A stretch of DNA of 64,000 bases from Halobacillus yeomjeoni (GTDB taxonomy: Bacteria; Bacillota; Bacilli; Bacillales; Halobacillaceae). Positions within the stretch are counted from its first letter, which is position 1; each line of letters starts with the position of its first letter. The notes beneath the pieces were generated by a model that saw only the letters and a program-made list of their open reading frames with translations, ran no database searches and was not told the DNA's origin. The stretch is taken from positions 806,001-870,000 of the forward strand of contig NZ_JAIVAI010000001.1 of the NCBI RefSeq assembly GCF_020171525.1, in the 5' to 3' direction. Shown piece after piece: positions 12,276 through 14,283 of this stretch. Position numbers and translations under genes: made by a program.

Positions 12276-12710
12276 TTAAACATCCAAAGTCTCTTGATTT
12301 TCAGACTTAGAATCTGCTGCTTCTTCAGGGTCTGACTCCATCTTATAGTGATCGCGGATGAGACGTTTCACTTCTTCATACACTTCCACATTCTCTTTCA
12401 AGAATTGTTTCGCATTCTCACGACCTTGACCAAGTCTTTCATCATTATAAGAGTACCAGGAACCGCTCTTCTGGATGATATCCAGGTCGGTACCGATATC
12501 CAGCAGTTCCCCTTCACGGGAAATACCTTCTCCGTACATGATGTCTACTTCTGCTTGTTTGAATGGCGGGGCTACTTTGTTCTTCACGACTTTTAGACGC
12601 GTCTTGTTCCCGACCATTTCGTTCCCTTGTTTCAATGTTTCTGCACGGCGGACTTCAAGACGCACGGAAGAATAGAACTTCAGTGCACGACCGCCAGGAG
12701 TTGTTTCAGG
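12276..12710 (-). CDS. recA: RecA recombinase, 3' exon (C-terminal 144 residues)
   Basis: This exon begins with [15 protein letters not shown], the second half of DNA-binding loop L2 and the following strand. It continues through MYGEGIS and GSWYSY to an acidic C-terminus, as expected for RecA. It has no start codon of its own: the TTG at 12711-12713 is the last intron base plus neighbouring intron sequence, and no ribosome-binding site precedes it. The first codon, CCT, follows directly on the 5' exon's AAT, giving the universally conserved GVMFGNPETTPGG once the intron is removed. The total length after splicing is 347 aa, compared with 348 in B. subtilis from memory. Confidence 0.95.
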
Positions 12711-13674
12711 CAAACTCTATAGATTTTCCATTTCTATAGTGTGGACTATATCTTCATCTCGATCCTAAATCGAGAGCCTTGCACTTCCAGCAGCAGCCTA
12801 TCTTCTACTGTACCCTACTCAGTTGACTCATTAAAGAATCCTTTTCGGTAGTCTCTACACCTTCCTAAAAATAGGCTTGGCACGGTATTACCCTTAAGTA
12901 ATGGGGGGCTCCACCGTTAGCAGCTTTTAAAGCTACACCCTTAGGCAATAAGGTTCACAAGGTTTTTTGCTTGCTATCGCTAGCAAGGGAAACCCTTAGT
13001 AAACTCTTTAATCTTCTGCAATACTATATCTTTTTGTGCTAATTGTTCCTCATGGATTACTAAGTAATAATACCCGTGTGATTTTAAATATGCCTGCTTT
13101 CTTTTATCGCGATCTTTAACTTTAGGAATAGAATGGGACCAACTTCCATGTACATCTAAGCAATGCTTTCTGCCTAAATAAAAGTCAATCGACCATTTAT
13201 TAATTCTTTTTTGCTTAAGATAAGCAAGGTCCATTTCAATTAGAAACTTTTCAACTTTTTGCTCTATAAGGGTGTCATAATTCTTCCTTCTAACTTGAAT
13301 CCCGAGTTGTTTTCTCCGCCTAGCTACACAAGCATCAGTAACTCCATACTTGGCAGCAATTTCAACATGAGAGAGGTAAGGGTTTTTTAATTCCTCCAGG
13401 ACTTCACTACTTTTTGGAAGGTATAACTTCCAATGCCTTGTTCTTTTCAACCCTAATAAATTGATTATTTCTCCAACTCTCCTGTAATCAACACCTATGG
13501 CAGAAGCAATTTCGGTTAGCTTTAGTTGATAGTTCTCTTTGATATAGTCAACTTGCCATTGTTCTATATTCCTAAATGTTCGGTTCGCAATTTTCACAGG
13601 CATTTACCACAACTCCATGTAAGCAATTTAGCCAGCGAGATACGTCATTCAGTAGATTAAGCAACTAATTGTTG
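12711..13674 (-). ncRNA. Group I self-splicing intron inserted in recA
   Basis: This 964-nt insertion sits between codons Asn203 and Pro204. The 5' exon ends in U and the intron ends in G, the group I rule, and removal restores RecA in frame. Near the 3' end the minus strand shows canonical core elements. A CCTA-TTTT-TAGG hairpin is followed by GTGTAGAGACTA (12860-12849) and by AAGATATAGTCC (12754-12743), whose GACTA and TAGTC form P7. The P8 hairpin is at 12757-12775 (7 bp, TCTCGAT/ATCGAGA) and the P9 hairpin at 12717-12739 (CTATAGA/TCTATAG). The endonuclease gene lies in the 5' half, upstream of the core. I could not settle the P1 pairing. The intron is visibly AT-richer than the exons. Group I introns in recA are known in the B. 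cereus group and its phages. Confidence 0.93.
12980..13603 (-). CDS. Intron-encoded homing endonuclease, EDxHD (Vsr-fold) type
   Basis: This 207-aa protein has its own ribosome-binding site (GGAG, 9 nt before the ATG). The N-terminal half has two helix-turn-helix-like units: LKLTEIASAIGVDYRRVGE (28-46) and a second around YLSHVEIAAKYGVTDACVA (76-94). The C-terminal half matches the EDxHD nuclease pattern: Glu114/Glu118, Asp140 in WSIDFYL, LDVHG with His152, and Asp164/Asp166 in KDRDKRK, ending in HGYYYLVIHEEQL. Such enzymes cut intronless recA alleles and spread the intron by repair; I-Bth0305I from a Bacillus phage recA intron is the named relative. All key residues are present, so it is probably active. 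The family assignment is by motif and could be confirmed by structure prediction. Confidence 0.85.
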   Translation of the reverse strand: MPVKIANRTFRNIEQWQVDYIKENYQLKLTEIASAIGVDYRRVGEIINLLGLKRTRHWKLYLPKSSEVLEELKNPYLSHVEIAAKYGVTDACVARRRKQLGIQVRRKNYDTLIEQKVEKFLIEMDLAYLKQKRINKWSIDFYLGRKHCLDVHGSWSHSIPKVKDRDKRKQAYLKSHGYYYLVIHEEQLAQKDIVLQKIKEFTKGFPC

Positions 13675-14283
13675 ATTTCCGAACATGACTCCGACCTTTT
13701 CGCGAATTTGGTTGATGAAAATGGCCGTCGTTTTCGATTTGCTGATGGCACCAGAAAGCTTACGAAGGGCTTGAGACATCAAACGTGCCTGCAAACCGAC
13801 GTGGGAGTCTCCCATTTCACCTTCGATTTCTGCCTTAGGTACAAGGGCTGCTACGGAATCAATAACAACCATGTCTACTGCTCCACTACGAACGAGGGCT
13901 TCCGCGATTTCTAACGCTTGTTCCCCTGTATCCGGTTGAGAGAGTAATAGTTCTTCGATATCGACACCAAGTTTCCGTGCATAAACAGGATCCAGGGCGT
14001 GCTCTGCATCGATGAATGCGGCCGTGCCACCTTTACGCTGAGCTTCAGCTATCGCGTGCAGGGATACGGTCGTCTTACCGGAAGATTCAGGACCATAAAT
14101 TTCTACGATTCTACCTCGTGGATAACCGCCGACTCCCAGCGCGACGTCCAAGGCTAGTGAGCCACTTGGAACGGTGTTGACTTTCTGTTCCGCTCCATCG
14201 CCCATTTTCATGATGGAGCCTTTACCGAACTGTTTTTCAATTTGGCGTAACGCCATATCTAACGCTTGTTTACGATCACTCAT
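13675..14283 (-). CDS. recA: RecA recombinase, 5' exon (residues 1-203)
   Basis: This exon encodes the ATPase core. It has Walker A GPESSGKT (64-71), the catalytic Glu region IDAEHALDP (91-99), Walker [11 protein letters not shown] (138-147), loop L1 (about 151-160) and the start of loop L2, ending at Phe-Gly-Asn203. Without splicing, translation runs five codons into the intron and stops at 13657, giving a truncated 208-aa protein. RecA forms filaments on single-stranded DNA, drives recombination and triggers LexA self-cleavage. AAAGGCGG precedes the ATG. The promoter and LexA box lie at 14314-14364, and cinA lies upstream behind a terminator. Confidence 0.98.

Follow-up and report, generated by a model that had tools for sequence, protein, structure and literature searches.

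A group I intron carrying an EDxHD endonuclease frame in recA of Halobacillus yeomjeoni, and an unspliced message that seems to end in a degron-like tail

The interrupted recA gene and its ribozyme

The window, i.e. the whole 64,000-nt stretch of Halobacillus yeomjeoni DNA analysed here, carries recA on the minus strand (14283-12276), split after Asn203 by a 964-nt insert. The 5' exon terminates in ATG TTC GGA AAT (M-F-G-N203), the first letters of the insert are CAACAATTAG and its last GAGTTTG, and the 3' exon opens with CCT GAA ACA at 12710. Both exons are open and are 97.5% and 91.0% identical to the RecA of a same-genus genome (L091). Once the insert is removed, RecA is 347 aa long, like the uninterrupted protein of the same genus. 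The 20 recA genes found among 21 same-genus genomes (threshold E 1e-50) all read through codon 203, with a stop-to-stop frame no shorter than 362 aa; the twenty-first genome, in about 1000 contigs, gave no recA match at E 1e-50. In the window genome, which is 98.5% complete, the split gene is the single recA match at E 1e-50, and recA was found in 40 of the 41 genomes of the relatives search, the window genome included. The preliminary description had placed the split exactly after Asn203, with U at the exon end, G at the insert end and a continuous loop L2 upon removal of 964 nt; the coordinates, the letters themselves and the same-genus genes agree with it on each point. An intein at codon 203 is ruled out by the stops that close the reading frame in the insert, and a group II intron by the group I fold (see below). 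The features of the locus are as follows.

13675..14283, minus strand: recA 5' exon, codons 1-203, ending in U (Pfam RecA, 3.9e-111)
12711..13674, minus strand: group I intron, 964 nt (covariance model, fold and exact exon fit)
12276..12710, minus strand: recA 3' exon, 144 codons and stop, starting CCT (Pfam RecA 6.3e-29, RecA_C 4.7e-28)
12980..13603, minus strand: predicted EDxHD homing endonuclease frame, 207 aa, within the loop of P1; the clamp strand, the guide and P2 coincide in part with its last codons
13657..13674, minus strand: in-frame tail of the unspliced frame, QQLVA-stop (from the sequence and the tail count)
13655..13662, minus strand: GCUUAAUC, suggested 5' strand of a stem that would close the ORF loop by pairing near 13008-13013, in the last endonuclease codons
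12988..12993, minus strand: internal guide sequence GUUUCC, forming P1 with exon GGAAAU (13675-13680); inside the endonuclease frame and invariant in nine cores
12970..12987, minus strand: P2 hairpin CUUGCUA-GCGA-UAGCAAG, containing the stop codon of the frame
12956..12962, minus strand: P3 5' strand, partner 12777-12783; 7 pairs, formed in every cell, one of which changes from G-U to G-C
12757..12775, minus strand: P8 hairpin, one pair showing four pair types
12744..12748, minus strand: P7 3' strand UAGUC, partner GACUA at 12849-12853; invariant
12717..12739, minus strand: P9 hairpin, from the nine-core fold

The Rfam Intron_gpI covariance model, a check proposed in advance, matches at 12966-12724 of the minus strand with E 2.3e-6; the score of 34.2 bits lies under the gathering score of 50, which is a curation threshold and not a biological feature. 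Two scans took in eight and then six other loci. In the first, five introns of the recA lineage match at E <=0.01 (L013, L045, L048, L050 and L051; 28-47 bits), and in the second L095, L096 and L117 match at E <=0.05, the seven matching recA relatives scoring 28-47 bits. L052, a true member of the lineage, has no match at E 0.01, nor do L047 and L082, which lie outside it. A pattern running from P7 to the 3' exon occurs once in the window and in none of 100 shuffles, and so is not due to chance.

Nine cores, that of the window included, were aligned on a structure drawn by hand. In this fold 97.5% of cells are paired, a percentage biased towards the structure because it was derived from the same nine sequences; the stronger part is the two-sided changes, found in 11 of 66 pairs (28 cells, against 8.5 in shuffles). 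This signal is lost when the partners are slid. P3 and P7 are almost invariant, their support being pairing and position. The intron of the window has the P3/P7 pseudoknot core together with P4-P6, P8 and P9, the 5' exon U pairs with the guide G, and the intron ends in G, as is expected of group I. P7, P8 and P9 had been described from the start; P1 (GGAAAU/GUUUCC) and P3 come in addition. Covariance model and covariation support the 964-nt recA insert as a group I intron. We take its subgroup to be IA-like, judging by the hairpins between P7 and P3.

Near the 5' end of the intron, GCUUAAUC may pair with the last endonuclease codons. The mean duplex energies, -12.9 kcal/mol for cognate strands, -9.6 for swapped and -6.9 for shuffled ones, are suggestive; they come from 10 of 13 introns (L045 and the near-copies L011 and L014 being omitted), some of them closely related, with overlapping segments in the short ones. 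P10 is weak: of 11 introns, 10 form three pairs, and L051 has its third pair broken. As one change fits (window) and one breaks (L051), no claim is made of its covariation.

The endonuclease frame and a probable route to splicing and homing

The guide corresponds to codons G-F-P near the 3' end of the endonuclease frame, and the stop codon of the frame falls in P2, which places the frame in the loop of P1. Since its last codons double as guide and P2, introns devoid of the frame retain these parts of the RNA.

Residues 111-201 of the 207-aa product match the catalytic domain of I-Bth0305I (PDB 3r3p) at E 2.7e-13, and a profile of four such endonucleases does so at E 3.9e-20. Pfam DUF559, MTES_1575 and Vsr also match, all below their cut-offs. 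E114, D140, H157 and D166, the EDxHD catalytic residues, are invariant in all four endonucleases. In the crystallised 3r3p chain, Ala stands opposite D140 and H157; we infer these Ala residues to be inactivating mutations. An AlphaFold model made with four sequences (mean pLDDT 78.8, pTM 0.44) retrieves 3r3p as the sole PDB entry at E <0.001 (E 2.2e-5), in keeping with the Vsr-like fold that had been anticipated. Among viral models, the top structure match is A7KV39 (266 aa, E 1.7e-13, 30% identity over 205 columns), with an rmsd of 12.7, so that the domain arrangement does not superpose; this entry is presumably I-Bth0305I itself. Two putative helix-turn-helix-like units precede the nuclease domain, as judged by weak Pfam matches and predicted helices. 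Between the endonucleases of the window and L052, dN is 0.145 and dS 1.88, the latter near saturation. In the 41 relatives the endonuclease finds only the window genome and two weak matches (E 6e-4 and 8e-4). Sequence match, invariant residues and predicted fold support the identification of the frame as an EDxHD homing endonuclease, as first proposed.

The locus is almost certainly occupied by a mobile group I intron, lodged after codon 203, in the DNA-binding loop L2, of the only recA found in the genome, which splices to give a 347-aa RecA and whose frame specifies a homing endonuclease. Splicing, cutting and homing would proceed as follows. The pre-mRNA would fold with P1 made of exon GGAAAU and guide GUUUCC and with the P3/P7 pseudoknot, guanosine would attack after the exon U, and the joined exons would encode the 347-aa protein. 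The frame in the P1 loop would yield a Vsr-like EDxHD endonuclease that bears two helix-turn-helix-like units. The most likely role of this enzyme is to cut recA alleles lacking the intron at the conserved site, repair then copying the intron in. It is plausible that RecA aids the homing of its own intron. An intron that no longer splices, leaving the cell without full-length RecA, would suit the Rfam score under the cut-off, but is very improbable given that all core helices are present and conserved and that both exons have stayed open and so similar to those of L091.

Distribution and movement of the intron lineage

A scan with the pattern of a collection holding one genome per species (84,980 species) returned 7 stretches, five of which are recA introns at codon 203, in Bacillus litorisediminis and four Anoxybacillus species. 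The others, L012, which has no RecA match, and L008, judged by its own sequence, are likely chance matches. The pattern fixes one form of P7 and misses members with a different form. A RecA search of 397 genomes of the order found further split recA genes among the matches listed. In the same 397 genomes the ribozyme model R1 has matches at E <=0.001 in 41, which fall into two clear classes. The upper class comprises 10 genomes with 290-347 bits, every one of them in recA at N203; in the lower class all are at or below 67 bits, and none of 26 lower-scoring loci checked in the order and the class (L097-L122) holds recA. As seven of the ten high scorers are in the R1 model and G245 is a near-copy of one of these, the fresh finds are G229 and G340 only. 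In 398 genomes of the class the window alone scores high, the next match having 103 bits. The latter (L117), the top-scoring ribozyme found outside recA, belongs to a different order of the class; its host gene reads as ribonucleotide reductase.

The ten bearers are spread over 8 families. Four carry the endonuclease (the window, G121, G229 and G245) and six do not, so that forms of the intron with and without it occur at one recA codon. The 415-nt intron of Anoxybacillus caldiproteolyticus has its frame reduced to the last codons and the 307-nt intron of Bacillus litorisediminis has even fewer left; by eye, the introns without the frame at this recA site retain C-terminal codons of it. To call the chromosome of the window distant, as was done at the outset, overstates the case: it is one of several members of the lineage within its order.

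Other inserts occur in recA genes of these genomes. Intron-like inserts follow G202 in L047 and L082 and codon 64 in L057, L058, L082 and L085, the two being combined in one recA in G312 (L082); at the thresholds applied, Rfam matches none of L047, L082 and L057. Group II-like inserts, presumed such from a 5' GUGYG, are seen at about codon 204-205 (L079, L081), near codon 215 (L080) and near codon 95 (L069-L073, L084). In five genomes (G148, G221, G268, G292 and G312) a single recA is interrupted twice, which makes this gene look like an intron hot spot in the order.

Comparisons of introns with their exons support horizontal movement of the lineage. The introns of A. thermarum, A. ayderensis and A. 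pushchinoensis show 1-2 differences in 984 nt, their recA exons 29-55 in 960 nt; at four-fold sites 0 of 66 differ in the endonuclease and 20-32 of 145-146 in recA. Near-identical introns in diverged exons imply recent spread. A 2014 review (PMC3984707) states, in the part consulted, that there is little evidence for horizontal intron movement among bacterial species; the Anoxybacillus introns are evidence of that movement. Within 92 nt of the site lie 1 of the 55 exon differences between thermarum and pushchinoensis, 5 of 29 between thermarum and ayderensis and 4 of 51 between ayderensis and pushchinoensis. With one of three pairs clearly depleted near the site, co-conversion is not claimed.

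An old intron of the order, patchy through many losses and with little horizontal movement, would explain why divergence of intron and endonuclease between families about equals that of recA (outside Anoxybacillus, four-fold sites have diverged to a like extent in the endonuclease and in recA) and why the bearers cluster on the recA tree, where 1 of 500 shuffles is as low. This reading is unlikely, however. In the recA tree the window is nested among 19 rows that lack the intron, 18 from its own genus and one from its own family (support of the clade 100/98). Intron presence requires 7 changes, of which 5 are forced, and in no case among 200 bootstrap trees does one change suffice. Moreover, an intronless genome (L056) sits among the Anoxybacillus species whose introns are near-identical.

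The horizontal movement first suggested is thus supported for the lineage, on its patchy occurrence in 8 families, the Anoxybacillus spread and the 7 changes on the tree, but not for the window's own copy. The nearest intron, L052, is about 90% identical in the core and 77% (aa) in the endonuclease; four-fold differences number 28 of 47 in the endonuclease and 95 of 142 in recA, near saturation in both. The two have diverged alike, which lends no support to the window having lately acquired the intron from a sampled host, and kin so diverged do not allow the transfer to be dated. Phage, plasmid and viral collections gave no close relative (among the matches listed, only E >=0.06) and thus neither a phage or plasmid donor nor a vector.

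Proposed fate of the unspliced message and comparison with known systems

The unspliced recA frame continues into the intron as QQLVA and then stops; unspliced mRNA would be translated only as far as this point. The tails of other lineage members are QRLVA (4), QRIVA, QLVVA, RYMVA and QLQTA; that of L013, QQRVIA, keeps the frame through a 3-nt length change, and one member has QFTLGFPC, with no Ala end. At a second recA intron site the tails are KLAV or KIAA. LVA is a degron variant of the ssrA tag, and QQLVA has the LAA/LVA-like C-terminus of ssrA-type degrons. The tmRNA tag of the window genome is GESNENLAVAA. Of six genomes tried, four others have tags ending in ALAA and none was called in L237. 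The unspliced recA message thus seems to end in a tail resembling a protein-destruction tag, and the Ala-ending tail may act as a degron on the unspliced protein.

Tails were counted across intron sites for a part of the matches listed. The 132 rows entered, of which 130 were resolved at 23 sites (L142 and L171 were not found), contain at least eight pairs in which both rows are one gene: L110/L144, L118/L164, L121/L165, L136/L159, L137/L168, L138/L211, L156/L199 and L204/L219. Omitted beforehand were near-copies (L011, L014, L083), repeats (L087-L094, L162), L170, and loci with host frame or exon end unfixed (L112, L117, L140, L153, L191, L192, L202, L203, L205, L208-L210, L222, L225, L228); among these the tail of L225 ends in EAA and that of L228 in NLC. 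By eye, from sequence motifs, we take the host genes to be those of flagellin, ribonucleotide reductase (RNR), thymidylate synthase, QueF, tape measure, amidase, terminase and helicase. Tails of at least three residues were considered, one locus being drawn per site, with the other two frames as control.

At a mean of 10.6 of 15 sites with such tails the last residue is Ala; in the control frames this is so for 2.9 of 42 site-and-frame rows (13 of 211 rows overall). These odds are rough, since the measure and the three-residue cut were chosen after seeing the tails, and the sites are not fully independent, since some introns are related. The form [LIVMAYF][AV][AV] is reached at a mean of 5.2 of the 15 sites and in 0 of 211 other-frame rows. 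Of the 13 sites read once the idea had been formed, a mean of 9.2 end in Ala. The flagellin site DVD has an Ala end in 20 of 20 rows (YALAA in 11). Against the rule stand the RNR sites SRRG and NPC, with Ala ends in 3 of 7 and 3 of 4 rows, and the recA codon-64 site, where two of four have a tail (ELVA, ERIA), the other two being EM and EK. Also against it, Ala ends are absent from the flagellin site NAQDG (0 of 11 rows, EMPL or EMPR) and the amidase site (0 of 1), and eight sites have no tail of three residues. The group II-like inserts in recA end in CC, CF, CS or RP. Lytic phages give FLG (T4 td), SFA (T4 nrdB, presumably), ELT (T4 nrdD) and SFT (Twort), none of them LVA/LAA-like; the tail rule is therefore not universal.

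Several flagellin and queF-like loci, so named by eye, stand out. At the flagellin DVD loci (L099, L102, L110, L113, L114, L133, L141 and others) the unspliced frame ends in YALAA or a variant, resembling ssrA ends. At the flagellin 3' site (L105, L107, L111, L118, L121 and others) the group I match comes after an intact flagellin stop codon and a second C-terminus lies downstream (QANQQPQGVLQLLR); 1 of 33 rows has an Ala end, the other 32 encoding a flagellin-like C-terminus. Spliced and unspliced mRNA might here both yield full flagellin. Group I matches in a queF-like gene (L100, L104, L120, L131, L132) have a stop one residue into the intron.

One proposal, which we consider evenly balanced between right and wrong, is that group I introns of bacterial protein genes use their first in-frame codons to give the truncated, unspliced host protein a C-degron of ssrA type (LVA, LAA, IAA), so that ClpXP would destroy a poisonous RecA N-terminal fragment, one flagellin site receiving a complete substitute C-terminus instead; introns would thus manage the fate of unspliced products. 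An RNA hairpin or shared intron ancestry, with no selection on the peptide, is a somewhat less probable source of the Ala ends. Small stems apparently lie at the stop codon in several introns (partly by eye), and related tails are common to some sites (tape measure QLG and AEAG; RNR RNSG and APTG). This account fits poorly with the rarity of Ala ends in the other two frames, with the retention of frame across different insertion phases at an RNR site (by eye), and with its retention through the length change in L013. If the degron proposal is true, the tail accounts for an intron in the gene of an essential, polymer-forming protein, couples host fitness to splicing efficiency and offers the intron a route to be harmless upon splicing failure.

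I-Bth0305I and a group I intron reportedly occur in recA of Bacillus phage 0305phi8-36. At the level of the gene, the window likewise has a group I intron inside recA, and its endonuclease, like I-Bth0305I, appears to have a C-terminal Vsr-like EDxHD domain behind helix-turn-helix units. It differs from I-Bth0305I in that the two are about 30-37% identical and in that the host gene is a chromosomal recA. For I-Bth0305I the source is Taylor 2011 (cited in PMC3943268). Bacillus anthracis and its kin reportedly have a recA group I intron as well (Ko 2002, as cited in PMC3984707 and PMC1995217). Among titles and the starts of abstracts, with few subscription journals covered, no paper was recognised as describing this recA intron lineage or intron-encoded degrons. 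Flagellin genes of thermophilic Bacillus also contain group I introns (Hayakawa and Ishizuka, as cited in PMC3984707). Like the present one, these are chromosomal group I introns in Bacilli, and at one flagellin site among the analysed loci the unspliced frame receives an Ala-ending tail, as in the recA lineage. Unlike that lineage, the flagellin introns lie in another gene, at another site, and have a different ribozyme (R1 about 36-57 bits, compared with 290-347).
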